The position numbers were made by a program, and so were the translations under genes. A DNA stretch of 64,000 nucleotides. It comes from Methylophilaceae bacterium. GTDB lineage: Bacteria; Pseudomonadota; Gammaproteobacteria; Burkholderiales; Methylophilaceae. Shown here piece after piece: positions 4,822-41,993 of this stretch. Each line of letters starts with the position of its first letter. Position 1 is the first letter of the stretch. The notes under the pieces are model-generated. The model saw nothing but the letters and a program-made list of their open reading frames with translations. It was not told the origin of the DNA and made no database searches. The stretch covers positions 1 through 64,000 of the forward strand of contig JANZZG010000005.1 of NCBI GenBank assembly GCA_026419515.1, written 5' to 3'.

Positions 4822-4831
4822 CGAGGCAGGC

Positions 4832-7282: not shown

Positions 7283-7587
7283 CGGCCTGGGTGAAAATCG
7301 CGCTTCTGGAAGACATCCCCCGGCTGGGCGCGCGGGTGGTCAAGAGCGCGCGCGGCAACATCGCCGTGTTCCGCACCGGCGAGGACCAGGTGTATGCCCT
7401 GCACGACCGCTGCCCCCACAAGGGCGGCCCGCTGTCGCAGGGCATCGTGCACGGGGCGTGGGTCACCTGCCCGTTGCATGGGTGGACCATCGGACTGCCC
7501 GATGGTTGCGCCATGGCGCCGGATCAGGGCAGAACTTCCTGTTTCGAAGTCAAGGTCGAGGATGGCCTGGTATGGCTGAAGCTGTGA
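7279..7587 (+). CDS. nirD: Nitrite reductase small subunit, Rieske-type
   Basis: A 102-residue Rieske [2Fe-2S] fold protein with the paired ligand motifs CPHKGG and CPLHGW. It is the small partner of NirB in NAD(P)H-dependent nitrite reduction. The ATG at 7279 overlaps the nirB TGA by four bases. Longer in-frame starts would lie inside nirB and are not credible. The 3' end overlaps the nasA start by 16 bases. Confidence 0.94.
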   Translation: MTAWVKIALLEDIPRLGARVVKSARGNIAVFRTGEDQVYALHDRCPHKGGPLSQGIVHGAWVTCPLHGWTIGLPDGCAMAPDQGRTSCFEVKVEDGLVWLKL

Positions 7588-10283: not shown

Positions 10284-10293
10284 GCAGCGGCGA

Positions 10294-10302
10294 TGGTACA
10301 AT
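10294..10302 (+). promoter_or_regulatory. Possible extended -10 element of a gshA promoter
   Basis: TGGTACAAT reads as an extended -10 (TG at 10294-10295, TACAAT at 10297-10302), nine bases before the gshA ATG at 10312. No convincing -35 is seen 16-18 bases upstream. If real, transcription would begin within a few bases of the start codon, giving a nearly leaderless gshA mRNA. Confidence 0.4.
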
Positions 10303-10311
10303 CGCCGCACC

Positions 10312-11583
10312 ATGGTTCCTCATCTGACGACCGCCCTGACCGGCCCCCTGCTGGAGCTGGAACGCCGCATCCTGGGCGCCATGCCCGACATCGAACACTG
10401 GCTGCGCACGCAATGGCTGGAATACGGCACGCCGTTCTATGCCTCGGTGGACCTGCGCAATGCCGGTTTCAAGCTGGCGCCGGTGGATACCAACCTGTTT
10501 CCCGGCGGCTTCAACAACCTCAATCCGGAGTTCACGCCGCTGTGCGTGCAGGCGGCGATGGCCGCGGTGGAAAAGGTGTGCCCGGAGGCGCGGCGTTTTC
10601 TGCTGATCCCGGAGAGCCACACGCGCAACACCTACTACCTGCAGAACGTGGCGGCCCTGCTCGGCATCCTGCGCCAGGCCGGGCTGGAGGTGCGGGTGGG
10701 CAGCCTGTCGCCGGACATCACGCAGCCCACCACGCTGGAACTGCCGGATGGCGGCGGCTTGCGGCTGGAGCCGGTACGGCGCGCGGGGACGCGGCTGGTG
10801 CTGGACGGCTTCGATCCCTGCGCCGTGCTGCTCAACAACGATCTCTCCGGCGGCATTCCGGACATCCTGCGCGGCCTCGAGCAGACGGTGATCCCGCCGC
10901 TGCACGCCGGCTGGGCGGTGCGCCGCAAGACCCGTCATTTCACCGCTTATTCGCGGGTGGCGCGCGAATTCGCCGAGCTCATCGGCATAGACCCGTGGCT
11001 GGTCGATCCCCTGTTCGCCGGGTGTGGCCGGATCGATTTCCACGCCCGGGTGGGCGAGGATTGCCTCGCTTCCCAGGTGGCTGACCTGTTGTCGCGCATT
11101 GCCGCCAAATACCGCGAATATGGTGTCGAGCAGGCGCCTTTCGTCATCGTCAAGGCCGATGCCGGCACTTACGGCATGGGCATCATGACGGTGAAAAGCC
11201 CGGACGAGGTGCGCGGCCTCAACCGCCGGCAACGCAACAAGATGGCGGTGGTCAAGGAGGGTCTGCAGGTGCAGGAGGTGATGATCCAGGAGGGGGTCTA
11301 TACCTTCGAGAGCATCAATGACGCGGTGGCCGAGCCGGTGGTGTACATGATCGACCACTATGTGGTGGGGGGCTTCTACCGGGTGCACACCGGGCGCGGC
11401 GTGGACGAAAACCTCAATGCCCCCGGCATGCACTTCGTCCCGCTGGCGTTCGACACCGCCTGTACGCTGCCGGACTGCGCCGGCAAGCCGGATGCCGCGC
11501 CCAACCGCTTCTATGCCTACGGGGTCATCGCCCGGCTGGCCCTGGTGGCCGCAGCCATCGAGCTCAGGGAAACGGCGCCGTGA
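10312..11583 (+). CDS. gshA: Glutamate-cysteine ligase, ferrooxidans-type
   Basis: A 423-residue protein resembling the proteobacterial GshA family first named from Acidithiobacillus ferrooxidans, unlike the E. coli type. Recognisable segments include GTPFYASVDLRNAGFK, DTNLFPGGFNNLNPEFT and a late FVIVKADAGTYGMGIMTVK consistent with ATP-dependent ligation. It makes gamma-glutamylcysteine, the first step of glutathione synthesis. The ATG at 10312 is 28 bases after nasA. No clear ribosome site precedes it, in line with a possibly leaderless transcript. The stop overlaps the GTG of gshB, which supports the assignment. Confidence 0.92.
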   Translation: MVPHLTTALTGPLLELERRILGAMPDIEHWLRTQWLEYGTPFYASVDLRNAGFKLAPVDTNLFPGGFNNLNPEFTPLCVQAAMAAVEKVCPEARRFLLIPESHTRNTYYLQNVAALLGILRQAGLEVRVGSLSPDITQPTTLELPDGGGLRLEPVRRAGTRLVLDGFDPCAVLLNNDLSGGIPDILRGLEQTVIPPLHAGWAVRRKTRHFTAYSRVAREFAELIGIDPWLVDPLFAGCGRIDFHARVGEDCLASQVADLLSRIAAKYREYGVEQAPFVIVKADAGTYGMGIMTVKSPDEVRGLNRRQRNKMAVVKEGLQVQEVMIQEGVYTFESINDAVAEPVVYMIDHYVVGGFYRVHTGRGVDENLNAPGMHFVPLAFDTACTLPDCAGKPDAAPNRFYAYGVIARLALVAAAIELRETAP

Positions 11584-12533
11584 GGCTGGCGGTCATCCTC
11601 GACCCGCTGGACGAACTGAAGCCGCACAAGGACAGTTCGCTCGCCATCATGCGCGAGGCGCAGCGGCGCGGCCACGCGCTGTTCGTGCTGGAGCAGGGGG
11701 ATGTGCTGCTGCGCGACGGGCAGGTCGTCCTGCGGGTCCGGCCTTTCTCCTTTGCCGGGGAGAGCTGGCAAACCGGAGACGTGCAGGAAGTGGCGCCGCA
11801 GCACTTCGATGCCCTCCTGATGCGCAAGGATCCGCCGTTCGATCTGGAATACCTCACCAGCACCTGGCTGCTGGAGCTGGCCGAAGCGCAGGGCGCGCGA
11901 GTGATCAACAGCGCGCGGGCGTTGCGCGACTGCAACGAGAAGCTCGCCATCGCGCGCTTTCCCCAGTTTGCCCCGCCTTTTCTGGTGAGCCGCCGCATGG
12001 CCGCGCTGCGGACTTTTCTCGAGGAACAGGGCGACATCGTGGTCAAGCCGCTGGATGGCATGGGGGGGAGCAGCGTGTTCCGCCTGCAGCGTGCCGACCC
12101 CAATGTCAATGTCATCCTGGAGACCATCACCCATTTCGAGCGTCGCACCGTCATGGCGCAACGCTACCTGCCCGAGATCCGGCAGGGCGACAAGCGCATT
12201 TTGCTCATCGACGGTGAGCCCGTGCCCTACGCCCTGGCGCGCATTCCCAAGGTGGGCGAGCTGCGCGGCAACCTGGCGGCGGGCGGCACCGGCGTGGCGC
12301 AGCCGCTGTCGGCGCGCGATCGCGTGATCGCCGAAACGGTGGGGGCGGCGTTGCGTCCGCTGGGCCTGTTTTTGATTGGACTCGATGTGATCGGCGACCA
12401 TCTGACCGAAATCAACGTCACCAGCCCCACCTGCATGGTGGAGATCGCCGCCCAGACCGACTGCGACCCGGCCGTCCTGTTCGTCGATGCGCTGGAACGC
12501 CTCTGCTATAAAGCAGGGGCCGGGAAACCCTGA
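11580..12533 (+). CDS. gshB: Glutathione synthetase
   Basis: A 317-residue ATP-grasp enzyme joining gamma-glutamylcysteine and glycine. The start MRLAVILDPLDELKPHKDSS, the segment LLMRKDPPFDLEYL and the nucleotide-binding loop VVKPLDGMGGSSVF are typical of GshB; the end has EINVTSPTCMVEI. It starts with GTG at 11580, overlapping the gshA stop (GTGA), so the two are translationally coupled. A dispersed repeat begins at its last codons. Confidence 0.96.
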   Translation: MRLAVILDPLDELKPHKDSSLAIMREAQRRGHALFVLEQGDVLLRDGQVVLRVRPFSFAGESWQTGDVQEVAPQHFDALLMRKDPPFDLEYLTSTWLLELAEAQGARVINSARALRDCNEKLAIARFPQFAPPFLVSRRMAALRTFLEEQGDIVVKPLDGMGGSSVFRLQRADPNVNVILETITHFERRTVMAQRYLPEIRQGDKRILLIDGEPVPYALARIPKVGELRGNLAAGGTGVAQPLSARDRVIAETVGAALRPLGLFLIGLDVIGDHLTEINVTSPTCMVEIAAQTDCDPAVLFVDALERLCYKAGAGKP

Positions 12534-12601
12534 AAAACCGTCGCGAGCAGCTCCAAGGCTTACGCGCACGCAGCGAAGGCGACCGCGACAAAACTTGGGC
12601 G
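12523..12601 (-). repeat. Dispersed intergenic repeat, copy C (single unit)
   Basis: Read on the minus strand, this segment matches the unit at 62598-62659. It shares TGCGCGTAAGCCT (13 bases) and TTTTCAGGGTT (11 bases), with roughly 48 of 61 positions identical by hand alignment. It lies between the convergent 3' ends of gshB and the ferredoxin gene and reaches into the last codons of gshB. The rest of the gap to 12644 holds no gene. Confidence 0.7.
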
Positions 12602-27566: not shown

Positions 27567-28400
27567 CTATGGCAACTGGCCGGCGGACACCAGTCGTCCA
27601 AATACCGTACTGTATGATGCCCAGTCCATCACGTCGTCGAATTCGCCATTGGGAGCCGTGTTGGCAGTTGGGGCATGGCTGACGAACACGCTGTCATTAT
27701 TGAGGTTGGCTGTTTCGTCGGCGCCGGGACTGCCAGTGGCCGTGTTTTTGCCAGTCGAATAGACGATGAACACCGCGCCATTCGTCAACCGGTTAGTGGC
27801 TGGACCACAGTCGGCGGCCGTGATGCCGCTGGCGGAAGCACAAACGAAAAGCAAATTCTGGGTCGCGATCCAACTCATGCCAGCACCGCCGCTGGCGTTT
27901 TTCATCCCTGCAGATTTGGTGAACACATAAGTTGCATAGGCATCATCGGACAAATTGGCCACGGCATAACGGATAGGGTTGTCCCAGCCGTCCAGGATGT
28001 AGCCGCTGCTGTTGGCAGGGGTGAGCCCCAAGGTAACGCCCGGCAGAAAACCGTTGAAGAAACCGGCGCAGATGCCGTTGACCGGATTGCCCGCGCTGGG
28101 GCTGGTGGCAAAAGCCTCCACGGCGGTCACGCCGGGGGAGGGGGCGGCCGCCGGGCATGGAAAGCGACCGTGGGCCATGGCATAGCCGAGCAGGGCCTCG
28201 CGTGCGTTCTCAAGCCGGGCACGCGTCTCGAGCAGGCGCTTCTGATCCAGCTGGGCCGATAGAGGTACCAGGACTGCTCCCAGCAACAAGCCGAGGATGA
28301 CCAACACCACGGCCATTTCGACCAAGCTGAAGCCTTGGTATTTGCGCTGCGGAAACAATGGCAGTTCCACTTCACGGAGCGACGATGAAGACTTGGTCAT
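27567..28400 (-). CDS. Class III prepilin, MSHA-like minor pilin
   Basis: A 277-residue protein with a prepilin leader. The sequence QG|FSLVEMAVVLVILGLLLGA gives cleavage after G23, F24 as the methylated residue and E28 at position +5, then one hydrophobic helix. The head domain has ARLENAREALLGYAMAHGRF with FPCPAA, then DGWDNPIRYAVAN and GAVFIVYSTGKN. The ATG at 28400 overlaps the previous gene by 29 bases; starts upstream of it would lie inside that gene. It is the last pilus gene of the operon and the only one with a textbook prepilin signal. It may be the structural subunit or a minor pilin. Confidence 0.82.
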   Translation of the reverse strand: MTKSSSSLREVELPLFPQRKYQGFSLVEMAVVLVILGLLLGAVLVPLSAQLDQKRLLETRARLENAREALLGYAMAHGRFPCPAAAPSPGVTAVEAFATSPSAGNPVNGICAGFFNGFLPGVTLGLTPANSSGYILDGWDNPIRYAVANLSDDAYATYVFTKSAGMKNASGGAGMSWIATQNLLFVCASASGITAADCGPATNRLTNGAVFIVYSTGKNTATGSPGADETANLNNDSVFVSHAPTANTAPNGEFDDVMDWASYSTVFGRLVSAGQLP

Positions 28401-30102
28401 TATACTGTCTTGTTCTAGGGGTATTGGGCGCGTCAAAGACGAGATCGGCGTTTGTATTTTCCAGGCTGTCCAGATAATCGTTGAGTGCGCAAGAGGGCCG
28501 GACCTGTGCGCTGCCTTTGGCAACCACAAACGGTGAACTGGTAATCGGTTTACCCGTGCCGACCAACAACGCTTGGATGCCGGACCTGTTGCCGACGGTC
28601 ATGGTCGGGGAAGAGCGGGATAGTCGGTAGTAGAAAAAATCCTGCCATTTGTTGGCAGAAAACCATGCGGGTAGGCTACTCAGGGGCGGATCGCTGCACG
28701 CGGATGTGGTGAATGAACCCGTGGTAGAACAGGTCACGGTGGTGCTGCCACACCCGCCCGCTAGGCTGCATCCTCCACTGGCACTGTCCACGTTCATGCC
28801 GGAAAAAGTGTAGGTTCCAGTGGTATTGGCTTCGCAAGTCACCCCATCATCACGGCATCGGAACCAGCGCGACCCCGTGGTGTTCTGGCAAAAGCCGGGA
28901 CCCGTGCATAGGCAGGTTTGCGTAGTGGGCCGGGTGCACAGATTCGGGTTGCCCGGCGTCAATACGCCAGCGGTCACGGCCGAGGCAGGAATCGTCGTCG
29001 GGGGCACGGCCCAGGTCGAGGCGCCGCTTCTGGTGTAGGCGACGTTCCCGATGGCCCCGAAACTACAGGTACAGCTGAAAGCCGCGCCAACCGTACAATT
29101 ACACGTCGTGCCTGCGGCACTGGGGCCAATTGGCAGCATTCCTTCCAGAGTGTTATCTTTGCACACATAGCCACTGCTGGTGCCCAGTGGTGCCGCGTAG
29201 GGAAAACGGCCTTGTGCCGAAAAATACGCTTTCAAGACGGTTTTGGCATCACCAGCGACCCGTTTCGTCACTTCTGCCATCAGTTCGTCGATGGTGATGT
29301 AGACCAGCTTGTCATTGAACTCATAGGGTTGCTCATAGAGGGCATCGTCACTGCGGATAGCTTTGTCATCTTCTCCCATGACGAAATCTTCGTCTGGCAT
29401 GGCGTATGTCCTGTTGGAATAGGTGACCGCGCCAATACGGAAGCGGTCAAGGTACTCCGCAGGACCGGCGATTCCACTGCTCCGATTTTGGCTGGGCAAA
29501 GGCGGGCCAGGGGCGATGATGACTGCAGCGACACGGTCGGAGACGACGTTCCCCTTTTTATCGAGTACTTGCATCCATGGATAGGTGGGGTTATCGATGA
29601 TCCCAGGGTTGATGATAGGATCGCTGACGGGTGAGTAGCTATGAACCAGATTCCTGGATACCGCATACCAAAGCGGTTCATCGCTACCGTCGCGGAATTC
29701 CTTGCCCAGACCAGGAAGCAGTACACCACAGTCAGCATAGTCTCCCGCTTTCCAAGGCAGGCGCCCGATCAGATGTGAGTAGTTGGTCGGTCCCCCGGGG
29801 CAGTCGCTTTGTCCATCGTAATTGCCGTCTGCGCTACGGTCTGGAAAAGGCATCAGGCCGGGCCACATGGGGTGGTTCACGGACCAGCCGATCAAGGCGG
29901 TCTTGGCTTGTTCTAGCGCATTGAAGGTTTTTTCGTCCCGGTCGATTTTTGATGCGAAATCGTTCGAAGCATGCAGGAGAAGCGCGGTGGCCGCCAGCCC
30001 CAGTAAAAATGCCAGGATGATCAACATCACTCCTCGTTGGCGCAGTGTGGTGCTGCCGGACTGAACGTGGCGTGTCGGCACAGACATCTCGGACGGCTTC
30101 AA
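28372..30102 (-). CDS. Large cysteine-rich pilin-like protein with duplicated head module
   Basis: A 576-residue protein of unclear family in the pilus operon. The N-terminus (about 21-44; RQRGVMLIILAFLLGLAATA) looks like the hydrophobic helix of PilX/MshP-type proteins but lacks the usual Glu+5 and clear cleavage residue. A module with ALEQAKTALIGW and MPFPD (61-88), LWYAVSRN (144-151) and VAAVIIAPG (191-199) is repeated as AKTVLKAYFSAQGRFPYAAP (286-305), FFYYRLSR (489-496) and GIQALLVGTGKP (508-519). The second copy contains an insert with 15 cysteines between residues 314 and 469. The C-terminus (NDQVFIVAP) matches NDSVFVSHAP of the adjacent prepilin. Start overlaps the upstream stop (ATGA). 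Confidence 0.72.
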   Translation of the reverse strand: MKPSEMSVPTRHVQSGSTTLRQRGVMLIILAFLLGLAATALLLHASNDFASKIDRDEKTFNALEQAKTALIGWSVNHPMWPGLMPFPDRSADGNYDGQSDCPGGPTNYSHLIGRLPWKAGDYADCGVLLPGLGKEFRDGSDEPLWYAVSRNLVHSYSPVSDPIINPGIIDNPTYPWMQVLDKKGNVVSDRVAAVIIAPGPPLPSQNRSSGIAGPAEYLDRFRIGAVTYSNRTYAMPDEDFVMGEDDKAIRSDDALYEQPYEFNDKLVYITIDELMAEVTKRVAGDAKTVLKAYFSAQGRFPYAAPLGTSSGYVCKDNTLEGMLPIGPSAAGTTCNCTVGAAFSCTCSFGAIGNVAYTRSGASTWAVPPTTIPASAVTAGVLTPGNPNLCTRPTTQTCLCTGPGFCQNTTGSRWFRCRDDGVTCEANTTGTYTFSGMNVDSASGGCSLAGGCGSTTVTCSTTGSFTTSACSDPPLSSLPAWFSANKWQDFFYYRLSRSSPTMTVGNRSGIQALLVGTGKPITSSPFVVAKGSAQVRPSCALNDYLDSLENTNADLVFDAPNTPRTRQYNDQVFIVAP

Positions 30103-30662
30103 CGGGTAGGTGCAGGTGACGCAGCTGCGGTTGCTGCGGTGGGGGAGCCTGCTCCAGTTTTGTCATCTTTGACCAGCCTGTTGGGATCGGGAAGGCCTTC
30201 CGTATGCCGGGCCGGTAAATCTCTTGGGCTATCGGCCAGAATATGGCTCACCGGGTCATAGCTTTGACCGGGCTTGAGCTTCACGGTCTGGCTGGCTGCT
30301 GGTAGTCGGATCTGCACCTGGGAAGTGTTGCCGTGGAGTCGACCGACCTCAAATGCTTGCTCGGCGGATTTTTCTCTGACTGGCTGGCCATTGACCCATA
30401 CCGTTCCTTTGCCATCATTGCGTTTGACATAGCCTTGCACGGTGATGACCGGCAGCAGCTCGGTAGGGGCGACTTCGGTCGTGTTTTCTTCTTCTACCGT
30501 GCTTGAATCGATTATTTTTTCCGGTGCTTTGTTGTTTTGGCGCACAATGTCGAGCGCCGCACGCTCGGCTGGCGTCAAGAAGAGGCGTCCTAGTGTGGCG
30601 TTTTCTGCCAGTACGGGAAAAGGCAGCAACAAAAAAGCGGTGATACGTAGTAAGTTTTTCAT
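30099..30662 (-). CDS. MshK/PilP-like pilus assembly lipo- or periplasmic protein
   Basis: A 187-residue exported protein: Sec signal (MKNLLRITAFLLLPFPVLA), a region with LTPAERAALDIVRQ, and a core VQGYVKRNDGKGTVWVNGQP resembling the GspC/MshK/PilP-type beta fold that contacts the secretin. The tail is Ala/Pro-rich. Both ends overlap neighbours by four bases (ATGA), so it is tightly coupled to the PilO-like and large pilin-like genes. The family assignment rests on a short motif and gene position. Confidence 0.62.
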   Translation of the reverse strand: MKNLLRITAFLLLPFPVLAENATLGRLFLTPAERAALDIVRQNNKAPEKIIDSSTVEEENTTEVAPTELLPVITVQGYVKRNDGKGTVWVNGQPVREKSAEQAFEVGRLHGNTSQVQIRLPAASQTVKLKPGQSYDPVSHILADSPRDLPARHTEGLPDPNRLVKDDKTGAGSPTAATAAASPAPTR

Positions 30663-31276
30663 GTCGGGCCTCCATGGCGAGGAGGTTCGGTAATGGTGAG
30701 CCAGTCAATCTCACAGGTCGCGTTCAGATTGGGCAGGAACTTTCCACGGCCTCCTCCAGGCAACCGCTCGATGATACAGTCGCGTACCATGAAAGGCGGG
30801 TTGTTTTGCTTGGGCAATTCGTGGAGCAAGGTGAACAGGTCGTTTTCATGCAACAGGGGAAAAGAGATTTTCATCACTGATCGATGCAGGCCGAAATTGC
30901 CGATCTCCAACGGGAAAGCGGGTTTGTAGTCTTCTTGTGCCGCAATGTCATAACTGATACCAAACAGTTTGTAGCGCAGGTTGATGTTACGCAGGTCATC
31001 GATCCAGTCCACGCGTTGTTCTTCCCCGACGAAGCCGCGGCGGATCAGTTGTTCGTATGCCGGTAGGTATTTGAGAATGTTGTCTCTTTCCTGGCCAGAA
31101 GACTGATAGCGCTGCTGAGCTTGCAAGAGTGCACTTTGCTGGACTTTGAGGAGTTGCTCTAGCCTGGTTTTGCGCGTTTCGGTGGTCGAATACAGCAACG
31201 TGGCCAGAATCAGTACTACACCCAAGGTAATGAGCGGGAGCTGGAGCTTGCGCAAATCATGAGCATTGAATGTCAT
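30659..31276 (-). CDS. PilO-like inner-membrane pilus assembly protein
   Basis: A 205-residue protein with one N-terminal membrane helix (about 12-30), a coiled coil (ETRKTRLEQLLKVQQSALLQ) and a ferredoxin-like periplasmic domain typical in layout of PilO/MshJ. Start and stop overlap flanking genes (ATGA both sides). It is expected to form the alignment complex with the PilM/PilN-like fusion and the MshK-like protein. Confidence 0.7.
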   Translation of the reverse strand: MTFNAHDLRKLQLPLITLGVVLILATLLYSTTETRKTRLEQLLKVQQSALLQAQQRYQSSGQERDNILKYLPAYEQLIRRGFVGEEQRVDWIDDLRNINLRYKLFGISYDIAAQEDYKPAFPLEIGNFGLHRSVMKISFPLLHENDLFTLLHELPKQNNPPFMVRDCIIERLPGGGRGKFLPNLNATCEIDWLTITEPPRHGGPT

Positions 31277-32847
31277 GAGGCATCTCCTGATTTGAGGACG
31301 AGCCGTAGCTTGAAATGGGCCGCCGGCATTTGCTGGGCTTGTTGATCCAGCGTGGTTCCCTGTAGCTTGACCAGAGAACTGGTATTGACCGGCTGTTGGA
31401 GGATGACGACTTGTTCGACCTGCGGATTCCGCCTGAGATTTTCGGCCAAGCGATTCACGCTTTCCAATGCGGCACGGTAATCTCCTTTGAAATCATTGAT
31501 TTCGCCATCGATGAAGCCTATTTCATAGAGACCGCTGGGTGATTGCGGCGGCAAAGAAGGAAGCGGCACATTGGCAGGATTGGACGAGCTCTCATCCATG
31601 GCTTGTGGATCTGTGCCATAGTGCCAACGCAGCCGGTTGATCCGAATTTCCCTCTGGGCGTCCAATACCGCGCTGGTGACCTGCATCAGGCGGAGTGGCG
31701 TGCGGTTCAACCCATCGATTTTCTGTGCCAGTTCGACGGCCAGCTTGAGATCGTTTCCTGAGACGGGAGTTTTGGGGAAATTCTGCGCCACCTCGTTATA
31801 GAGTGCTTCCTGACGATGCGTTTGTTCGGTCATCGTAGCAAGTTTGCGCCCCAGTTCTGCCGCCTGCATCAGGTTGAAGGTCGCAAGCACGATGGCACCC
31901 GTCACGCAAAGGGCACTGGCGAAATTGATGCCAATACGTAATTTGAACAGCTGGTAAGACCGCGTCTGCCTGGCGGATACCAAATTGCATGCTGGGCGCT
32001 GCCATGCCAGCATTTGCATGTGGATGAGATCTGGATAGTGTTGTAGCATTTCCTGTTTGAGTCCCAGATGGCGCGCCAGCGTTTCCGGGCCCAGAATGAG
32101 ACAACGGCTTCCATGGCTGCTTGCGAGACTGCTGGCAAGACGGGCATCTTCCGCTTCCAGAGCGAGAAAAACTACGTGCAACGGTGTTTCCCGCCCGATG
32201 ATGCGCAGGCTCTCCAGATACAGGCGGGTTTTTTCCATTTCACTGACATAAAACGTGCCGAGCTGGCGTGAATCTATTCCTGTTAGTGGGGTCAGTCGAC
32301 TCACGCGCAACTGCTGGCCAGAGAAGTAGGTCTGGCGCAAGCCGGCGCAGTGATGTGTCATCAGCAGTAGCTCGCTTTGTTTCAGCTTAAGTTTCTTGAC
32401 CAACAGTTGGCTGATCACGGGGAGCAGATAGACGCCTGCAAGTGGCGCTTGGATGCCTTCGAGTAAGTTCATCCAGGGCGCGACGATATCCGGGTTGGTC
32501 AGTGCCATCATCAGGAAGCGATCATCGCGGCGCTTGTCGGCTTCGCGGCCGGCGTAAAGTGCCGCACGGTAATGGGTATTGCGATAAAGCTGGTTGAGTT
32601 TGCGCTCCACCATTTCCTGCCGGGCACTGCCAATGGTATGTGGCAACGACTCTAGGCGGAAATCTGCCTCGACGGCATCGACGATGACATGCACTGGTGT
32701 GTTGGGATGACGCTGTAAAAACTGGCGAAACTCACCATGTCCAGATGGTGAATTGGGAAAGAGGCTACACGCAACCAGCCGCCCCATCCGCCATAGGCCC
32801 ACGGTTGCTTGTAGAGGGGTAACGCACAGGATGATCTTGGAGAGCAT
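31273..32847 (-). CDS. Fused PilM/PilN-like (GspL/MshI-like) assembly platform protein
   Basis: A 524-residue protein. Residues 1-300 are cytoplasmic and resemble the actin-like PilM/GspL/MshI part (SKIILCVTPLQATVGLWRMG, then ARQEMVERKLNQLYRNTHYR and GTFYVSEMEKTRLYLESLRI). A membrane helix follows near 308-330 (FASALCVTGAIVLATFNLMQ), then a PilN-like periplasmic part with a helical segment and an end rich in beta strands. This joins in one chain what the type IV pilus system makes as PilM and PilN. No ribosome site is obvious at the ATG. It overlaps the PilO-like gene. Confidence 0.72.
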   Translation of the reverse strand: MLSKIILCVTPLQATVGLWRMGRLVACSLFPNSPSGHGEFRQFLQRHPNTPVHVIVDAVEADFRLESLPHTIGSARQEMVERKLNQLYRNTHYRAALYAGREADKRRDDRFLMMALTNPDIVAPWMNLLEGIQAPLAGVYLLPVISQLLVKKLKLKQSELLLMTHHCAGLRQTYFSGQQLRVSRLTPLTGIDSRQLGTFYVSEMEKTRLYLESLRIIGRETPLHVVFLALEAEDARLASSLASSHGSRCLILGPETLARHLGLKQEMLQHYPDLIHMQMLAWQRPACNLVSARQTRSYQLFKLRIGINFASALCVTGAIVLATFNLMQAAELGRKLATMTEQTHRQEALYNEVAQNFPKTPVSGNDLKLAVELAQKIDGLNRTPLRLMQVTSAVLDAQREIRINRLRWHYGTDPQAMDESSSNPANVPLPSLPPQSPSGLYEIGFIDGEINDFKGDYRAALESVNRLAENLRRNPQVEQVVILQQPVNTSSLVKLQGTTLDQQAQQMPAAHFKLRLVLKSGDAS

Positions 32848-32869: not shown

Positions 32870-34075
32870 CTAAAAATTCATTTTGGAAAGCGTATCGTAC
32901 ACTGGCGAGAGTACGGAAAACATGATTATCGCCAATAACCCGCCCAAAATCACGGTGAGGGTAGGCTCCAGCATCTTCAGCATTTTCTCCACCGAATCCT
33001 TGACATCCCGGTCGTAGAAATAGCTGATGTTCAGTAACGCGGTATCCAACGCCCCGGTGCCTTCACCAACGCGTATCATGCGTACCACCAAGGGCGGGAA
33101 CAGCCCGAGGGTGTGAAACGTTTCGCTCATACTATCTCCTGCGTTGATCTGCTGGTAGGCCCGCTCGAGCCCATCGGCCACCACACGGTTGCCGACGATG
33201 TCCTGGCAGGTTTTGATGGCATCGAGAATGGGGATGCCGGTCTGGTACATCAGGGCGAAATAGCGAGCAAAGCGTGCCATGATGATTTTTTGCAGTACTG
33301 GCCCGATCATGGGCAGGTGCAGTTTCAGGTAATCGAAATGGTAACGTGCTTGGGGGTGGGTTTTGACGATGAAGCTCAAAATGAGGAACAGGAGCACGGG
33401 AACACCCAGAAAAACCCACCACCCATCGACCATGGCTTGGGAGACCGTGATGAGAAGCTGGGTCTGCAAAGGAATTGCTTGGCCCATGTTCTTGAAAAAG
33501 CCCACCATCTGCGGAACGAGATAAGTCATCAAGAACACCGTTGCACCGAGTACCACCACCAGCAAGAACATCGGGTATGCCAGCAAGCGTTTGGTTTGCG
33601 CCAAGAGTTCGTCCTGCCACTTCAGGGTCGAGGCGAGATGGTCCAACACTTCGGCCAGTTTACCCGTCTGCTCGCCAGCGCGCACCAGATTGACGAAAAC
33701 TTGGCTGAAGACCTTGGGGTGCTGCGCCATGGCCTGTGACAGCATGAGGCCCCCCTCCACAGCAGAAGCGAGCTGGCCAATGACTTCGCGGAAGCTTAGG
33801 TTGGCCGTACTGTCGCGCAGGTCGGCCAGGCTTTCCAGAATGGGGACTCCGGCGCGCGTCAGCTGTTCTAGTTGAAAGCAGAACATGATGAGGTCCTGCA
33901 AGCCGACCCCAGCATGGGTGAACAAAGGCATGCGTTTGCGTGCCTCTCGGTAAGTGATGAGGTCCAAGCCGATGCGTTTGAGGCGCAGCTCCAAATCGAC
34001 GTCATTGATGGCTTCCATTTCTCCCCGTGCGGGCTTGCCATTCTGGTCGACTGCCTTGTAGTGGAAGGTCGGCAT
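32870..34075 (-). CDS. mshG: Type II secretion F-domain inner-membrane platform (MshG/PilC)
   Basis: A 401-residue polytopic protein with two T2SS-F domains. The start PTFHYKAVDQNGKPARGEME is typical, the first domain covers about 65-190 (FCFQLEQLTRAGVPILESLA), membrane segments follow (MFLLVVVLGATVFLMTYLVP and FLGVPVLLFLILSFIV), and the second domain covers about 265-390 (RFARYFALMYQTGIPILDAI). It anchors the assembly ATPase at the membrane. It lies 18 bases after mshE. Confidence 0.92.
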   Translation of the reverse strand: MPTFHYKAVDQNGKPARGEMEAINDVDLELRLKRIGLDLITYREARKRMPLFTHAGVGLQDLIMFCFQLEQLTRAGVPILESLADLRDSTANLSFREVIGQLASAVEGGLMLSQAMAQHPKVFSQVFVNLVRAGEQTGKLAEVLDHLASTLKWQDELLAQTKRLLAYPMFLLVVVLGATVFLMTYLVPQMVGFFKNMGQAIPLQTQLLITVSQAMVDGWWVFLGVPVLLFLILSFIVKTHPQARYHFDYLKLHLPMIGPVLQKIIMARFARYFALMYQTGIPILDAIKTCQDIVGNRVVADGLERAYQQINAGDSMSETFHTLGLFPPLVVRMIRVGEGTGALDTALLNISYFYDRDVKDSVEKMLKMLEPTLTVILGGLLAIIMFSVLSPVYDTLSKMNF

Positions 34076-34093: not shown

Positions 34094-35800
34094 CTAATGT
34101 ACCCTGCCCGTGAGATCGACGACACGGGCCACTTCGGCGAGGCTGGTATAGCCCTCCAGTATCCTCCGGATGCCATCCTCTGCCAGTGTCTTGAGCCCCT
34201 TGGCCTTGGCAACGTCGCGCAGCTCATCCAGGTGGGCCCGGCGGGCGATCATGGCGTCGAGATCGGCATCGACACGCAGCAATTCAAAAATGGCCATACG
34301 CCCTTTGTAACCCGTATAACCACAATATTTGCATCCGACCTGATGATAGATTTTGATACGGTCGCGAGGGCTTACCCCCAAGACTTTGCATTCTTCTTCG
34401 CTGGGCTCATAAGCTTCTTTGCAGTGCGCGCACAGGATACGTACGAGCCGTTGGGCGATCACACCGATGACGTTGCCCGACATGATCTCGGGGGAGATGC
34501 CGATGTCGAGCAGGCGTGGGAAGGTGCCCAGCGCGGAATTGGTATGCAACGTAGTGAACACTTGGTGGCCCGTCATGGCGGCACGGAATGCCATTTCAGC
34601 CGTCTCCTGATCACGTATTTCGCCAACCAGGATGATGTCCGGGTCTTGGCGCATGATGGAACGGATGCCGTTGGCGAAATCGACTTTGTTGACTTCTGCG
34701 ACGGAGGTCTGGCGCATCAAGGTGACGGGGTATTCGACCGGATCCTCCAGGGTCATGATATTGACCGATTCATTGTTGAGATAGGAGAGCAGAGAGTACA
34801 AGGTCGTGGTTTTACCACTGCCAGTAGGGCCGGTGACGATGATGATGCCTTCCGGTCGCGCCATCATCGTTTTCAACTGTTCCAGTACTTCTGGACGTAG
34901 TTGCATACGGTCTAGAGGAATGATGGATTTCTCGCGATCGAGCACCCGCAATACGATGTTCTCGCCGTGTATGGTAGGGTGACTGGCGACACGGAAGTCG
35001 ATGGTGCGCCCGCATAGCGTGATGTTGATGCGGCCATCCTGCGGCGAGCGGGTCTCGGCGATATCCATGCCACTGATCACTTTGAGTCGTACCGCGATGC
35101 CAGGCCAATAAGACTTGTGCAGACTGCGAATCTGCTGTAGGACGCCATCGATGCGATAACGAATCCGCAAAAAGGCGTATTCTGGCTCGAAATGGATGTC
35201 GGATGCACCGCGCTTGACGGCGTCCATCAACAACGCGCCCACCAGTCGCACCACCGGCTGGGTGTATTCCTCACCGGCTGCCGTCTGCAGGCTGCCATAG
35301 TCGATTTCGCCAGTTTCGATCTCGCGTAGGATGCCATCGACCGAGAGTTCATAACCATAAAACTGGTCGATGTATTCTTCCAGCTGGGCTTCGGCTGCCA
35401 GCACCGGTTTGATCTGGATTTGCCCACCCAGCATGGCGCGCAGCTGGTCCAGCGCCACCACATTGAACATGTCCGCCATCGCCACCACCAATGACTTGGC
35501 GGCGTCATCGAACGCAATGGGCAACAGGTGGTGGCGACGAGCGAAATCTTGCGGTACCAGTTTGAGTGCTTCGTTGTCGGCGATGACGGTGGCCAGATCG
35601 ACGCTTTCCTGACCAATGGTATGCGCCACCAGATCGCGCACCATAGCCTCGGTGACGAACCCAAGCCGCACCAGCTGGCGTCCGAGCGGGATGTTGTTCT
35701 GCTCCTGCTCCATCAACGCAATGCGCAGCTGGTCTTGGCTGATCAGGCCTTGCTGCACCATCAACTCGCCGAGGCGCATTTTTTTTCTGGCTTCAGACAT
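34094..35800 (-). CDS. mshE: Pilus assembly ATPase with MshEN c-di-GMP-binding-type N-terminus
   Basis: A 568-residue GspE/PilB-family hexameric ATPase. The N-terminus starts RLGELMVQQGLISQDQL followed by a Gln spacing and IPLGRQLVRLGFVT, which fits the two-part MshEN motif that binds cyclic di-GMP in MshE of Vibrio. The catalytic part has GPTGSGKTTT (Walker A), LEDPVEYP, the Asp/His boxes (VGEIRDQETAEMA, TTLHTNSA) and a zinc tetracysteine (CAHC ... CKYC). The ATG at 35800 is preferred to one 20 codons upstream because it begins at the family start. Confidence 0.94.
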   Translation of the reverse strand: MSEARKKMRLGELMVQQGLISQDQLRIALMEQEQNNIPLGRQLVRLGFVTEAMVRDLVAHTIGQESVDLATVIADNEALKLVPQDFARRHHLLPIAFDDAAKSLVVAMADMFNVVALDQLRAMLGGQIQIKPVLAAEAQLEEYIDQFYGYELSVDGILREIETGEIDYGSLQTAAGEEYTQPVVRLVGALLMDAVKRGASDIHFEPEYAFLRIRYRIDGVLQQIRSLHKSYWPGIAVRLKVISGMDIAETRSPQDGRINITLCGRTIDFRVASHPTIHGENIVLRVLDREKSIIPLDRMQLRPEVLEQLKTMMARPEGIIIVTGPTGSGKTTTLYSLLSYLNNESVNIMTLEDPVEYPVTLMRQTSVAEVNKVDFANGIRSIMRQDPDIILVGEIRDQETAEMAFRAAMTGHQVFTTLHTNSALGTFPRLLDIGISPEIMSGNVIGVIAQRLVRILCAHCKEAYEPSEEECKVLGVSPRDRIKIYHQVGCKYCGYTGYKGRMAIFELLRVDADLDAMIARRAHLDELRDVAKAKGLKTLAEDGIRRILEGYTSLAEVARVVDLTGRVH

Positions 35801-35892
35801 TTGATTGCGTTCAGGCTTGGACACTGGGCATTTTAGCCCGATTATGCTCGAATCGGTCAACCCTTGGGCTGGGTCAAGGCCTCGGAAAAAGG

Positions 35893-37188
35893 TTATCGAC
35901 CAAGGGCGGAGCGTAGCTGGGTAATGCGTGATTCCAGAGCGGCGCGATCCACGTTACCCCCTTTGCCGGTTAGCAGTTCCAATGCGCGTTGGTAGTAGTC
36001 CAGGGCGAGCTCGGTTTTGCCCAACTGATCCAGGCTGACGGCCAGGTTGAAAGCATGTTCCGCATTGCCGGGATCGAGGCGGAAAGCCTGGAAATAGGCT
36101 TGCTGCGCGTCATTCCACTGATTTTGTTCCGCATACAGGCCACCCAGCACGGCGTGAAGATAGGCATCGTCCGGCTGCCGGGCCAGCAGGGATTTCACTC
36201 GACTTTGTGCTGCGACCGGGTCGCTGCCGCCCACCAGCGCAGTGAGACCGGCATGCGCCACAGTGTTTTTCGGGTCTAGTTCGAGCGCGCGTGCATAGTA
36301 GCCAGCCGCCTCGTCCCCTTTGTCCTGACGCGCTGCAATCGCGGCCAGCCCCAGCAGCGCATCGACACTGCGCGGATCGGCTTGCAGCAGCTGACGGTAG
36401 AGCCGCGCGGCCGCTGCATCGTCGCCCGCGGTAAACGCCTGGTAGGCGGCCAGTGCAGTGGGATCGATCGCGGGCTCGGATTTGCGACTGCGCTTGATCT
36501 CGATCGCCGGCTTGGCATCGGCGGTTGTTGCCGCGACGGGAGGAGAGGGCTTGTTCTTCGAGCCGGAGGTGCTGGTCGTGACCAGCAGCTTTTCGGTGAC
36601 CGGCTCGACCGGCTTGGTGGTTGGCGGCTCGGCTGTGACGGCAACGGGTGCGGGGACAGTCGCGGGTGGGGCCGCGGGTTCGGGCATGGAGGAAGCCGGA
36701 ACGGGAATGCTCTGCTCCATCGGGGCAGCCGGTGGAGCAGAAGGCACCGGAGCTTGCGCAATGGGCTGCGGGCGCGGCGGGAGGGGGCGTGCCACCACCA
36801 GCGCCGGTTGTTGCAGGGAATCTAGGTAGAGATAAAAGCCGATGCCGACCAGCAGCAAGAGCGCGAGCCCACCCAGTCCCAGCCAGAATGCCCGCCGGTC
36901 GCCCGGATCAGTCACTTCTTTGGCGCGGAACACTTTGGCGGCGGTTTCACGCGCTGGGCTAGGCTCCGAAACTGTGGCTGGCTGGGCGGAAGAGCCACCC
37001 GACACAGCCCCATTACGGGGGCGGTGGAATTCCGAAAAGCCACTTTCTTCTGCCAAAGAAAGTGCCTGCTCGGACACTTCGGGGTGAGGAGCAAGCTCCA
37101 GACGTAGCGCATCGTCCTCTGCTTTTTCGGCTGTGGCAGCTTGTTTGCTTTGTTCAGCTTTTTGTAGGGCTTTAATCAGCAGGCTCAT
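35893..37188 (-). CDS. mshN: MshN-like TPR protein with membrane anchor
   Basis: A 431-residue protein. The N-terminus MSLLIKALQKAEQSKQ is typical of MshN-type proteins. A single membrane segment lies around 101-122 (FWLGLGGLALLLLVGIGFYL), then a long Pro/Ala/Val-rich linker (about 125-250), then at least four TPR-like repeats (for example DDAAAARLYRQLLQADPRS and YYARALELDPKNTVAHAGL). It overlaps the mshL gene by 17 bases. It probably scaffolds pilus assembly parts in the periplasm. Confidence 0.8.
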   Translation of the reverse strand: MSLLIKALQKAEQSKQAATAEKAEDDALRLELAPHPEVSEQALSLAEESGFSEFHRPRNGAVSGGSSAQPATVSEPSPARETAAKVFRAKEVTDPGDRRAFWLGLGGLALLLLVGIGFYLYLDSLQQPALVVARPLPPRPQPIAQAPVPSAPPAAPMEQSIPVPASSMPEPAAPPATVPAPVAVTAEPPTTKPVEPVTEKLLVTTSTSGSKNKPSPPVAATTADAKPAIEIKRSRKSEPAIDPTALAAYQAFTAGDDAAAARLYRQLLQADPRSVDALLGLAAIAARQDKGDEAAGYYARALELDPKNTVAHAGLTALVGGSDPVAAQSRVKSLLARQPDDAYLHAVLGGLYAEQNQWNDAQQAYFQAFRLDPGNAEHAFNLAVSLDQLGKTELALDYYQRALELLTGKGGNVDRAALESRITQLRSALGR

Positions 37189-38977
37189 CGGTGGTGATGA
37201 CCGGCAATTGTTCGGGCAGGAACTGCTTGAACGCTTTCAGTTCTTCGCTTTCCAGGCTGGCGTTGGGGATGACGCTGGGGCGGATGAAGATGACCAGTTC
37301 GGATTTGCGAGCAGAATGGTTTTTCCCTTCGAAAAGTTTGCCGAGCAAGGGGAGCTTGGAGATGGTGGGTACCGCATCAGTGTTACGGGCCACTTCGTCT
37401 TGCATGAGCCCTCCCAATACGACGGTCTGTCCGCTGCTAACCTGGAGTACGGACTCCATTTCGCGTACCTGAATTTGCGGGATGAAGCTTCCCTCATTCA
37501 CTGGATCAGGAATTCCGTTACCCGGCAATTTCCTGGAAATCGTGGGCCGGACGTTCAAGGTCACACTTCCGTTTTCATTGATTTGTGGCGTTACACTCAT
37601 GACCACGCCCACTGGGACGGTGTGAGGCGTGGAAGTCCTACTCTGGGTTTGTACGCCTTGGGTTGCGGTGACGTCGGTCTTCACGGTGAAATAGACCAGG
37701 TTGTCCACTACCTTGAGAATGGCGGTCTGGTTGTTAAGCGCCATCAGTTTGGGACTAGACAGTACTTTGGTGCTACCAAACGTCTCTAGCAGTTTGATGG
37801 AGGCAGCAATGTCTCCTAATTTGCCAGCGGTGTTGAAATAACCCACCACGAAGTTCGGATTGTCCAATACACCCGAAGTGCGGGTGGCGCGCGGCCCCAA
37901 GGTCTGCTCGAAGGTGAATCCTTTGTTGCCGCCCCTGCTGCCCAGCCGACTCCAGTCGATACCGGTCTGGAATTCATCGTTGAGTGTGACTTCGACGATG
38001 GTCGTCTCGATCAGCACCTGGCGCTGGGCAGCGGCCATCACCGTATCCAGGTATTGCTGGATGAACTGATGCTGGCGCTCGGTTGCCATCACCGTGACGG
38101 TGCCCGCTACGGCATTGACGATCACTTCTTCATTGACTTTGCTGATCTGGTCTTTGGCCAATCTGATCAAATCCTTTTGAGCCCTTTCCGCTGCTTGACG
38201 CTCGGCACTGGAAGTCGAGGTCTGGTCGCTGCTACTGCTGGCTTGCTCCATGGCTTTGTCCGCTATGGTCTGTAACATCATGGTTTCATAGGCGGTGGCA
38301 GTCTGACTCTTGGTGGTCCTGAGAATGTTCCTGATGTTGTCGCTGAGTACCTCCCAGAAATTGTTCTGGGATTTGCTGTCCACGGTGGTATTCGAGTTGT
38401 TTTTACTGCCGCTGATACTGCTGCCTCCCCCCCCCGTTGCGGCGCTTGCAGCAGCGCCCGTCGATGCGATCTCGGCTGCAACACCGATGGTGGATTTGGT
38501 ATCCCGACTCATGTTGACGTAGTTGACCTTGTAGGTGCGTAGGGTAGGAATGTCTGGCGTGATCGAAATCGAATTGCCTTCGATTTTGTATATCAGGTCG
38601 ACTTGTTTGGCGAGTCGGTCCAGAATGGACGGTAGCGTCTGGTCAACTGCATTCAGCGTCACATTGCCTGAAATGGCCGGGTGGATATCGATGTTCATCT
38701 TGCTTTCGCGCGCCAGGGCGAACAGGATTTCCCGCACCGGCACGTCGCTCACCACCACGCTATAGGTCTGCTCTCTGACCTTGGGTTTGGGTGGGGGGAC
38801 ATAACTGGGTTTTTTGACCGGCTTGGGGATGTCTCCCATGGGAGGGGCGGCCGCGGTCGGTGCATTTTCCACAGAACCGATGTGACCCTGAGAAGGGGTC
38901 ACGGTACTTTGGTGGGCGCATCCAGCCAGACTCAGGAATAAGCAGGTGTGCCAGAGTTTTCTCATCATGGATGCCAT
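37172..38977 (-). CDS. mshL: MSHA-type secretin, outer-membrane channel
   Basis: A protein of about 601 residues with a lipoprotein signal (lipobox LAGC), a Pro/Lys-rich linker, the secretin N-domains (YSVVVSDVPVREILFALARE ... IEGNSISITPDIPTLRTY), a Ser/Asn/Gly-rich disordered loop and the C-terminal secretin barrel (GVVMSVTPQINENGSVTL, GQTVVLGGLMQDEVARNTD). The MshL family is the best match. The ATG at 38977 follows a GGAT sequence; a TTG two codons earlier or ATGs three and four codons later are possible. An AT-rich 57-base gap to mshM precedes it. Confidence 0.93.
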   Translation of the reverse strand: MASMMRKLWHTCLFLSLAGCAHQSTVTPSQGHIGSVENAPTAAAPPMGDIPKPVKKPSYVPPPKPKVREQTYSVVVSDVPVREILFALARESKMNIDIHPAISGNVTLNAVDQTLPSILDRLAKQVDLIYKIEGNSISITPDIPTLRTYKVNYVNMSRDTKSTIGVAAEIASTGAAASAATGGGGSSISGSKNNSNTTVDSKSQNNFWEVLSDNIRNILRTTKSQTATAYETMMLQTIADKAMEQASSSSDQTSTSSAERQAAERAQKDLIRLAKDQISKVNEEVIVNAVAGTVTVMATERQHQFIQQYLDTVMAAAQRQVLIETTIVEVTLNDEFQTGIDWSRLGSRGGNKGFTFEQTLGPRATRTSGVLDNPNFVVGYFNTAGKLGDIAASIKLLETFGSTKVLSSPKLMALNNQTAILKVVDNLVYFTVKTDVTATQGVQTQSRTSTPHTVPVGVVMSVTPQINENGSVTLNVRPTISRKLPGNGIPDPVNEGSFIPQIQVREMESVLQVSSGQTVVLGGLMQDEVARNTDAVPTISKLPLLGKLFEGKNHSARKSELVIFIRPSVIPNASLESEELKAFKQFLPEQLPVITTDEPAD

Positions 38978-39034
38978 CGTCAAATCCGTAGCTTACCCTT
39001 TATCGCATAAATTAATTTAAAATGCAAGCATAAC

Positions 39035-40561
39035 CTATTGAACGAATTTTATTTCTTCTCTTATTCCTCCCACCGTACGTAAACGGGGTCGGTGCATCTT
39101 GAGATTTTGAGGCAAGTCGTCTAACGCCTGCAATGCCGTGGCGCGATCTGGGTAGCTGCCATACAGGATGCACATGTAAGGAGTACCATTGACGGCGGTA
39201 CGGTACACATACAGGTTTTCCAGCCCGACGATCTTTGCCAGGCGCTCGAGTTGGGCATGCATTTTTTCCAACTTGTCCGCGCTCATCAACTGAATGGTCA
39301 CCGTGTCTGGTGGCTGCTGGGTTAGCCAGATGCGGGTGATATCCAAGCGTCGTTTGAGGATATCGGTCGTGTTTTCCAATGCTTGAGTCGGCTCTGAAAC
39401 GGAGGGTGATGCTAGGGGTGTAGCGGGTGCGATGGGCTCCGTTGTGGGTTGAGGTGACGCCGTGATGGTCGGGGACGATGCCGTGGGCGCCGCCGTTGCG
39501 GAAAGCGTGGTGGATACGGAAGCTGAAACTGGAGCCGATGGGGGCGTAGTTGGCGTCTGGGGCAGGGCCGACGCAGCAGACTTCCGCTGTTCCGGTAAGA
39601 CCGAGGGTACAAGAGCCGTAGCCGAGTTTTTGTGCGCCTCTTGCCATAACAAGCCATGGAGACCGAGTCCGATGCCTAGTCCGGCTGCCAGCGCTACCAA
39701 AGCGAGCCACCACGATTGGCGTGTCTTGGGCCAGCACGCTACTTCGGTACTGAATTCGCTGTCTTGGATGGCAATTTCCACGTGCTTGGGCGTGATGGAA
39801 TAGGCATTTTCCGCAAAGGCCGCAAGCATTGCTTTGTCGGCCAAGATGTTGATGCGACGGATCAGGCCTTTCGACGCCTTGGCAATGCGGCGTATGGCTC
39901 TCTTCGTGAAAAGGGGAGGACCAAAATAACCCGCGGTGCGCAAGCGGTAGATCAAGTAATCGGCAATGTCATGCTCGGAAAGAGGCCCCAGCGTGAAACT
40001 ATGCGTGATGCGTTCCTTGAGCTGGCGAATGTGAGGTTCATTCAGGTTGGCATCGAGCTCTGGCTGGCCGAACAATACGATCTGGAGTAGCTTGTCGTTC
40101 TTGGTTTCCAGATTGGACAGCAGACGGATTTCCTCCAGCGTGGCCAGAGGCATGCCCTGTGCCTCCTCCACGAAGATCACCACTTGACGACCCTGGGCGT
40201 GGCGTTCGATGAGATGGCTCTGCAGTGCCTGCATCACCTGCAGGCGGTCCGCGCCATGTGGCAGATCGATTTGCAGCTCGAAAGCGATGGCGTGCAGGAT
40301 GTCTTCCGGCGCTACGCTGGGGTTGGCCAGATAGACCCGCTCCACGGTCTCCGGCAGCAGTGTCTCCAGCATCCGACACAGCATGGTTTTGCCGCTGCCC
40401 ACCTCGCCGACCACCTTGACGATGCCTTCGCCGCTGGTGATGGCATAGAGCAAGGCATCCAGCACGGCACCGCGGTTGCCTCCCGAGAAGAAAAATTCGG
40501 TATTGGGGGTGATCTTGAACGGAGGCTGTTTCAAGCCGAAGTGTGCGTAATACATGTGCAA
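39035..40561 (-). CDS. mshM: MshM/ExeA-like AAA+ ATPase with SPOR-like C-terminus
   Basis: A 508-residue protein. An ExeA/MshM-type AAA domain (MYYAHFGLKQPPFKITPN; Walker A GEVGSGKT at 52-59; Walker B VVIFVEEAQGMP) is followed by a membrane segment near 287-308, a Pro/Ser/Thr-rich stretch, and a C-terminal domain around 420-505 reading like a SPOR/DamX domain (YVYRTAVNGTPYMCILYGSY, then RATALQALDDLP). ExeA-type ATPases help secretins pass or gather on peptidoglycan; a SPOR domain binds denuded glycan strands. It starts two bases before the end of the regulator gene. Confidence 0.83.
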   Translation of the reverse strand: MHMYYAHFGLKQPPFKITPNTEFFFSGGNRGAVLDALLYAITSGEGIVKVVGEVGSGKTMLCRMLETLLPETVERVYLANPSVAPEDILHAIAFELQIDLPHGADRLQVMQALQSHLIERHAQGRQVVIFVEEAQGMPLATLEEIRLLSNLETKNDKLLQIVLFGQPELDANLNEPHIRQLKERITHSFTLGPLSEHDIADYLIYRLRTAGYFGPPLFTKRAIRRIAKASKGLIRRINILADKAMLAAFAENAYSITPKHVEIAIQDSEFSTEVACWPKTRQSWWLALVALAAGLGIGLGLHGLLWQEAHKNSATALVPSVLPEQRKSAASALPQTPTTPPSAPVSASVSTTLSATAAPTASSPTITASPQPTTEPIAPATPLASPSVSEPTQALENTTDILKRRLDITRIWLTQQPPDTVTIQLMSADKLEKMHAQLERLAKIVGLENLYVYRTAVNGTPYMCILYGSYPDRATALQALDDLPQNLKMHRPRLRTVGGIREEIKFVQ

Positions 40562-40562: not shown

Positions 40563-41993
40563 CTATCTCACTTCGGTTTCACTGGTTTGCATACGACCGT
40601 ACAGTGTGGTGCGGTTGACGCCCAACATGCGCGCGGCCTGACTCAGATTGCCATGTGTCAATCTGAGTGCGGCTTCGATGTAGGATTTTTCCCATTGTCG
40701 TAGCAGTTGATCCAGGTGGATTACCGTTTCGGTTTGTAAATGCTTCTGGGCGAACTCCATCATAGCTTGAGGATCGTTGACCAGGGCACCACCACCAGGA
40801 ATGACGTCGTCTGCTACTGGATCGAGCTCGGCTTTGAGCTGGTCCACGTTCACCGTGGCACCAGCATATTTGGCCGACAGCCGGATGACGATGTTGCGTA
40901 GCTCACGTACGTTGCCAGGGAAGGGGTAGGTCTCCCATAGTCGTCGCGCTTGAGGCTCCAGCTCGAAAGGTGGGCGTTTGATTTCCCTGGAATAGAATGC
41001 ACGGAAATGCTCCAACAGTGCGAAGCGATCTTCATCCATCTCGCGCAGCGGTGGGACTTTGATGGCGAAAATGTTCAGGCGATGGTACAAATCGTGCCGG
41101 AAACGCCCCGCCCGCACTTCTTCACGCAAATCACGGTTGGTGGCTGCGATGATGCGCGCTCGGCAGATGCGGGTCTGGGTCTCACCGACTCGTTGATATT
41201 CACCATTTTCCAATACACGTAGCAGCTTGACTTGTATGTCCAGGGGCAATTCGCCGATTTCGTCCAGAAACAATGTCCCTTCATCGGCTTCTTCGAAATA
41301 GCCGGCATTCGTACCGACGGCTCCAGTGAATGCGCCTCTAGCATGACCGAATAGTAACGATTCCGCTAGGCTAGGCGAAATCGCCGCACAATTGAGTGAC
41401 AACAATAGCCCGTCTTTTCTGGCGCTGAGATTATGTAAGCAATGGGCTACCAACTCTTTGCCACATCCCGATTCGCCTTCGATCAATACCGGATAGGGTA
41501 GATCGGCGAATTGCTGGATCTGGGTGCGTAGGCTTTGCATGGCCAGACTGTTGCCGACCAGGGGGCAGCCAGTGCGGGTGGACTCGGCATGGCATTCGGC
41601 ATCCTGCAGTTGCAGCGCATTTTTCAACAGTTCCCGCAGCCGTTCCACGGCACAAGGTTTGGCAATGAATTCGGTGGCGCCAAGGGCTAGGGCATGACGC
41701 GCATTGGCGTCGTTGTTTTGCCCAGACAGTACGAAGATTTTCATGCTGGGTGCATGGGCCAGCAGTTCGCTGACGAGCTTGAACCCTTCTTCCGGTGAAT
41801 GCGGTGTCGGAGGCAGGCCGAGATCGACCAGGGCGAGCTGAGGGGGCGCATCGAGCTGGCGCAACAAGCTTTTGGCCTGCTGGCGGGACTCTGCAGCATA
41901 TACCTCGAAATCATTGCTGAGTGTGAAATGTAGAGTGTCTGTGATGATGGGGTCATCATCGATGAGAATGAGCCGAGGTTTGGTCGTAGCCAT
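40563..41993 (-). CDS. Sigma-54-dependent response regulator
   Basis: A 476-residue NtrC-family regulator: receiver domain with phosphoacceptor D57 (ALVDLGLP) and acidic pocket IDDDP, sigma-54 AAA+ domain with Walker A GESGCGKE and intact GAFTGA loop, and a Fis-type HTH (NLSQAARMLGVNRTTLYGRM). It resembles PilR/PrsR-type regulators. It is the first gene of the pilus cluster and ends two bases before mshM. No histidine kinase gene lies beside it. No convincing -24/-12 site was found within the cluster, so its targets are unknown. Confidence 0.9.
   Translation of the reverse strand: MATTKPRLILIDDDPIITDTLHFTLSNDFEVYAAESRQQAKSLLRQLDAPPQLALVDLGLPPTPHSPEEGFKLVSELLAHAPSMKIFVLSGQNNDANARHALALGATEFIAKPCAVERLRELLKNALQLQDAECHAESTRTGCPLVGNSLAMQSLRTQIQQFADLPYPVLIEGESGCGKELVAHCLHNLSARKDGLLLSLNCAAISPSLAESLLFGHARGAFTGAVGTNAGYFEEADEGTLFLDEIGELPLDIQVKLLRVLENGEYQRVGETQTRICRARIIAATNRDLREEVRAGRFRHDLYHRLNIFAIKVPPLREMDEDRFALLEHFRAFYSREIKRPPFELEPQARRLWETYPFPGNVRELRNIVIRLSAKYAGATVNVDQLKAELDPVADDVIPGGGALVNDPQAMMEFAQKHLQTETVIHLDQLLRQWEKSYIEAALRLTHGNLSQAARMLGVNRTTLYGRMQTSETEVR

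Follow-up and report, generated by a model that had tools for sequence, protein, structure and literature searches.

In the window analysed here, i.e., the whole stretch of 64,000 nucleotides from a Methylophilaceae bacterium, a pilin-like protein of 576 residues is encoded next to last in a gene cluster of the MSHA type, which raises the question of what such a protein may do in the filament. MSHA-type pili have been regarded as too poorly characterised to be tabulated beside other type IV filaments (PMC10191384). Our analysis led us to regard the protein as a minor type IV pilin that would be laid down first in an MSHA-type filament, cap its tip, and display a swappable binding module, a reading to which we assign a probability of roughly two in three.

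The open reading frame (ORF) that the initial annotation had placed at positions 28372–30102 was borne out. It lies on the minus strand, as do all other features of the window given below, with a TTG start codon at 30102 and a stop codon at 28372–28374. The TTG overlaps the stop codon of the upstream ORF, and an ATG at codon 6 is a possible alternative start. Searches with the 576-residue protein in Pfam, NCBIfam, PHROGs, and the PDB sequences resulted in zero matches, with no Pfam family at E values up to 1, and Pfam domains of PilY1/MshQ-type tip adhesins were absent. The 60 aligned members of its family revealed nothing in Pfam, NCBIfam, or PDB chains beyond single weak chance matches, and as judged by sequence searches, the family is unannotated in Pfam, NCBIfam, and PHROG.

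Two pilin heads in tandem

The protein displays the architecture of a type IV pilin, namely a long hydrophobic helix (alpha1; residues 25–75, 29878–30030), seen as helix 24–75 in the AlphaFold2 model, followed by an alpha/beta head that is homologous to that of a neighbouring N_methyl prepilin (27567–28400). This prepilin of 277 residues has a canonical GFSLVE leader (PF07963 over cut-off) and a single head (AlphaFold2 pLDDT of 87.8), and all ten structural matches listed for its model were pilins or pseudopilins.

It had been proposed that the motifs of the prepilin head occur twice, in order, in the 576-residue protein, and this duplication proved to be real and collinear. Head 1 (residues 76–270, 29293–29877) comes after an ALIGW helix and harbors the motifs PFPD, LWYAVS, VAAVIIAPG, and FNDKLVYIT. 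Head 2 consists of an N-terminal part with the motif RFPYAAP (residues 298–330, 29113–29211) and a C-terminal part (residues 471–576, 28375–28692) with the motifs LPAWF, FYYRLS, ALLVGTG, DYLDSLENT, and YNDQVFIVAP. For comparison via HHalign, we used profiles of head 1 (residues 50–276), head 2 (residues 277–330 and 472–576, with the insert removed), and the prepilin head (52 sequences). Head 1 matched the prepilin head at 99.2% (E 5.6e-20) and head 2 at 97.8% (E 1.2e-12), and head 2 matched the prepilin head at 97.0% (E 8.9e-11), all three alignments being collinear across most of their length. Blocks matching between head 1, head 2, and the prepilin were WYAV, YYRL, and RYAV; VAAVIIAPG, IQALLVGTG, and GAVFIVYSTG; DFV, LVF, and VFV; and FNDKLVYIT, YNDQVFIVA, and FDDVMDWAS, respectively. 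Chance repetition of the motifs was ruled out, since scores never exceeded 0.2% with reversed profiles or 5.2% with column-shuffled ones, of which 20 were run for each pair.

AlphaFold2 prediction of the whole protein from a 60-row alignment (pLDDT 87.1, pTM 0.83) revealed strands at residues 145–148, 177–180, 186–197, 239–241, and 265–270 in head 1 and at 490–494, 501–509, 511–515, and 570–573 in head 2. Both heads are joined by a single helix (residues 271–297, 29212–29292), in which the C-terminal helix of head 1 is continuous with alpha1C of head 2. With the halves modelled within the whole protein and the order of strands compared, this order was equal in both heads and in the separately predicted prepilin. 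Together with the controlled HHalign results, the strand order supports the suggestion of the initial annotation that two pilin heads are fused, so that the protein, as far as profiles and models go, carries two of them in tandem. A Foldseek search with the full-length model resulted in no significant match. At two related loci (L077 and L161, genome G211), a head-1 ORF of 290 residues is followed by head 2 in an overlapping frame of its own, which is either a true gene split or a sequencing error.

A variable insert in the second head

Between the two parts of head 2 lies an insert (residues 331–470, 28693–29112), which is all beta in the AlphaFold2 model. In total, the protein contains 18 cysteines, located at residues 101 and 125, at fifteen positions from 314 to 469, and at residue 538. 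Thus, the fifteen cysteines previously counted between residues 314 and 469 are exact in number, but only 14 of them belong to the insert proper, as Cys314 precedes it in head 2. The described richness in Thr, Gly, and Ser was likewise recovered (Thr 21%, Gly 14%, Ser 11%, and Cys 10% over residues c. 331–470). Among the family members, the cysteines corresponding to 314 and 469 co-vary (both in 16, neither in 11, and 3 discordant), as do those corresponding to 334 and 346 (20 both, 6 neither, 4 discordant), these counts being uncorrected for kinship. Such co-variation suggests disulfides for both pairs.

By profile comparison, the insert matched neither head 1 nor head 2. In a structure comparison (VIA) of the model of the whole protein, the matched rows covered the insert only and were of the immunoglobulin V-type with Z scores up to 6.4; beyond this Ig-like match, the insert corresponded to no named domain. 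A Z score of 6.4 is below the level that would be telling and may mean only a common arrangement of strands.

Among nine close members of the family, identity in the insert was 34%, compared to 58% in head 1 and 55% in the C-terminal part of head 2. The insertion site itself is constant, i.e., between the helix/FPYAA region of head 2 and LPxWF, while its content is absent, Cys-rich, of other sequence, or of about 700 residues. Members of 402–442 residues lack the insert, others harbor unrelated inserts of similar size at the same site, and two carry about 700 residues there. Since relatives are without the insert or have quite different ones at this site, we consider it a separate module set into the second head, as had been proposed. 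The region 28693–29112 shows no shift in GC content, and recent transfer of the insert as a compositional outlier was ruled out on this basis.

By eye, the two inserts of about 700 residues (L108, 11985–15344; L109, 4531–7464, minus strand) display repeated modules of the form GSTxTLIDxxxDF ... GDxVxNxTDGS. The giant inserts of L108, L109, and L112 revealed no Pfam match. At locus L112 (genome G318; 4804–12600, minus strand), a protein of 2598 residues matches the family with head 1 only; this gene is followed by four family-like pilins of 351–444 residues, and Msh genes are absent from that stretch. Moreover, single-headed members with the same leader lacking Glu5 were identified (L088/L160 with 251 residues, L153, L154, and L155). 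Single-headed homologs of the putative tip protein adjoin an enlarged prepilin of 474–594 residues (L155, 4131–5915, minus strand; L157, 6333–8105; L154, 6495–7919), as if the module had moved to the partner pilin. In L155, this prepilin contains an extended region rich in Ser and Thr as well as a C-terminal domain bearing cysteines.

Operon, leader, and proposed position in the filament

The cluster is headed by a sigma-54-type response regulator (40563–41993), assigned by sequence and synteny and kept in relatives, followed by an MshM-like ATPase (39035–40561; position and synteny), the secretin MshL (37172–38983; TIGR02519 with 264.2 bits against a cut-off of 250.2), an MshN-like TPR protein (35893–37188; TPR families), the extension ATPase MshE (34094–35860; PF00437), and the platform protein MshG (32870–34075; PF00482, E 5.5e-52). 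Genes in the positions of mshI (524 residues, 31273–32847), mshJ (205 residues, 30659–31276), and mshK (187 residues, 30099–30662) were assigned by position; the last has homologs at the same place in relatives, with no family match in Pfam and NCBIfam. The tandem-head gene and the prepilin gene complete the cluster. Thus, mshE, mshG, mshL, and mshM of the published MSHA model (PMC6668835) are present, mshM by synteny only. Since MshE carries the c-di-GMP-binding MshEN domain (PF05157; NF053729 over cut-off), the pilus is probably under c-di-GMP control, as far as sequence can tell.

In regard to its distribution, the tandem-head family was present in 103 of 187 genomes of the same taxonomic family, in 55 of 229 of the class and, at a stricter cut, in 22 of 299 genomes sampled from the phylum. 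A profile search of contigs with a 9-row alignment revealed mostly Methylophilaceae (Methylotenera, Methylobacillus) among the named relatives; Methylotenera mobilis 13 and Methylotenera versatilis 7, both cultivable, also have the operon. MSHA-type E-G-I(-J-K) clusters hold 26 of the 28 other family loci examined, and the prepilin with Glu5 adjoins the family gene at nearly all examined loci.

The leader (residues 1–24, 30031–30102) ends in RQRG; Gly occupies –1 in every one of the 60 aligned members and Gln occupies –3 in 57 of them. Glu5 occurs in none of the 60 members, compared to 52/52 of the aligned neighbouring prepilins. Position +1 is V here in place of the usual Phe and varies across the family (A, M, V, S, F, or I), and the N_methyl models PF07963 and TIGR02532 matched neither the protein nor its 60-member family. 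Taken by themselves, the missing N_methyl match and the lack of both Phe1 and Glu5 would fit a pilin-derived accessory that stays in the cell, anchored in the inner membrane, and aids initiation of assembly from the periplasm. The conserved G-1 and Q-3 argue for a maintained leader, the pairing with an E5 prepilin is fixed, and initiating pilins elsewhere also lack Glu5 (PMC5207764), so that we consider this the least likely of the alternatives.

According to published work, tip complexes are capped by the sole subunit lacking Glu5 (PMC10191384), a minor pilin of large size whose residue +5 is hydrophobic may mark the first subunit (PMC5207764), and the tip is the only place that can accommodate bulky inserted modules (ComZ, PMC6561018; PilB, PMC8179133). 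The absence of Glu5 in 60/60 members, the large size, and the MSHA operon, read along with the signatures in PMC5207764 and PMC10191384, thus lend indirect support to the tip location that the initial annotation had put forward.

A tip subunit could also belong to a secretion pseudopilus, in which the protein would be the GspK-like tip, the MSHA-type machine would work as a piston for secretion, and an exported substrate would be recognised by the insert. As in GspK (PMC5207764), Glu is absent at +5 and the pilin fold is interrupted by a large extra domain, the machine is of the MshL/E/G type, and the nearest structural matches of the prepilin are GspG-type pseudopilins (Z 5.3–6.0), tied with a type IVb pilin. 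However, the GspK models resulted in no Pfam match and in one NCBIfam match (E 0.03) in a single one of the 60 members, the secretin scores over the cut-off for MshL and under that for GspD, and the content of the insert varies freely among close species, like that of surface-binding modules. We therefore regard a secretion role as improbable, though the best placed of the alternatives.

The genome encodes one prepilin peptidase and further pilin sets. No mshA gene was found in the locus itself; MshA-like pilins are located on contig C39 and a candidate pilin on contig C20. Contig C39 (L044) carries MshE/G-like genes, two MshA-like pilins, a PglL/O-antigen-ligase-like protein, and C-, D-, O-, and P-like pilins. 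A second MshL is encoded on contig C45, and contig C56 harbors a set resembling T4aP minor pilins. The pilin on contig C20 (L046; 250 residues, GFTLIE leader; 1323–2075, minus strand) belongs to a family that lies within about 5 kb of the tandem-head/prepilin pair in 11 other loci. It was detected in 98/103 genomes with the tandem-head family compared to 18/84 without it, uncorrected for kinship; among these 18, a profile revealed a clear family member in at least one, and another contains a fragment. Genomes lacking the tandem-head family can also harbor pilins of the C20 type. From these patterns of sequence occurrence, the C20 family is the likely best candidate for the main filament subunit, not exclusive to this system.

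Proposed role and comparison with known systems

In the tip-subunit reading that we prefer, the N-terminal helix would insert into the inner membrane and the leader would be cut after G-1 by the single prepilin peptidase. Lacking Glu5, the protein could not dock under another subunit and would thus be the first subunit laid down, partnered by the E5-bearing prepilin encoded next to it, and would cap the filament tip during growth. Head 1 would be the true filament-facing head and pack with the prepilin, while head 2, without a membrane helix of its own and carried on a helix that runs on from head 1, would be a platform pointing outward. The hypervariable insert, which here would be beta-rich and stabilised by disulfides, would form an exposed binding module swapped between species, and the third pilin family, that of contig C20, would probably build the filament.

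A broader proposal, which we hold with about equal belief and doubt, is that the pilin fold was duplicated and the membrane-free head 2 became a platform whose single fixed grafting site is refilled by evolution with different modules, in an unannotated family beside MSHA-type machines in about one quarter of the sampled class genomes, and that these represent a distinct MSHA subclass with two E5 pilins. MSHA-type pili would gain a candidate tip subunit, which is absent from the protein-family libraries, together with its partner pilin and a candidate for the main pilin, all searchable across many genomes. The data also suggest a route by which pili could change their binding partner, in which each lineage would refill a single fixed site within the duplicated head.

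Compared to the Vibrio cholerae MSHA pilus, the locus shares MshL/M/N/E/G in one place and the c-di-GMP-type ATPase domain, but lacks MshA–D and MshO–Q and has two head-sharing pilins instead; a second set with MshA-like pilins is found on other contigs.

ComZ of Thermus thermophilus, which is located at the pilus tip, also combines a pilin fold with a large domain in the sheet and an adjacent partner pilin (PMC6561018). This closest architectural parallel would allow for a tip receptor for DNA in uptake instead of an adhesin. However, ComZ has a single head, a beta-solenoid insert, and a competence locus, and the protein studied here differs in all three; PDB chains gave no sequence match to the family beyond weak chance level. 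No competence gene was seen in the cluster, and DNA binding would give no obvious reason for inserts that are species-specific and often missing, which makes a DNA receptor quite unlikely.

GspK/XcpX, the tip pseudopilin of type II secretion, is a large minor pilin without Glu5 as well, and is a proposed tip subunit with an extra domain set into the pilin sheet (PMC5207764), but its single head bears an alpha-helical insert, in contrast to the tandem heads here, the second of which holds a hypervariable beta insert. The modular pilins PilB and PilC of Streptococcus sanguinis carry a binding module (PMC8179133), as would the protein studied here if its insert binds; their module is fused behind the pilin and not placed inside a second, duplicated head, and the leader signature used in the survey of modular pilins (PMC8179133) is missing from the tandem-head family. 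In the open-licence literature, we found no relevant report of tandem or duplicated pilin heads and thus no precedent for a second head as a graft platform, which by analogy would work like the arrangements in GspK, ComZ, and the modular pilins.
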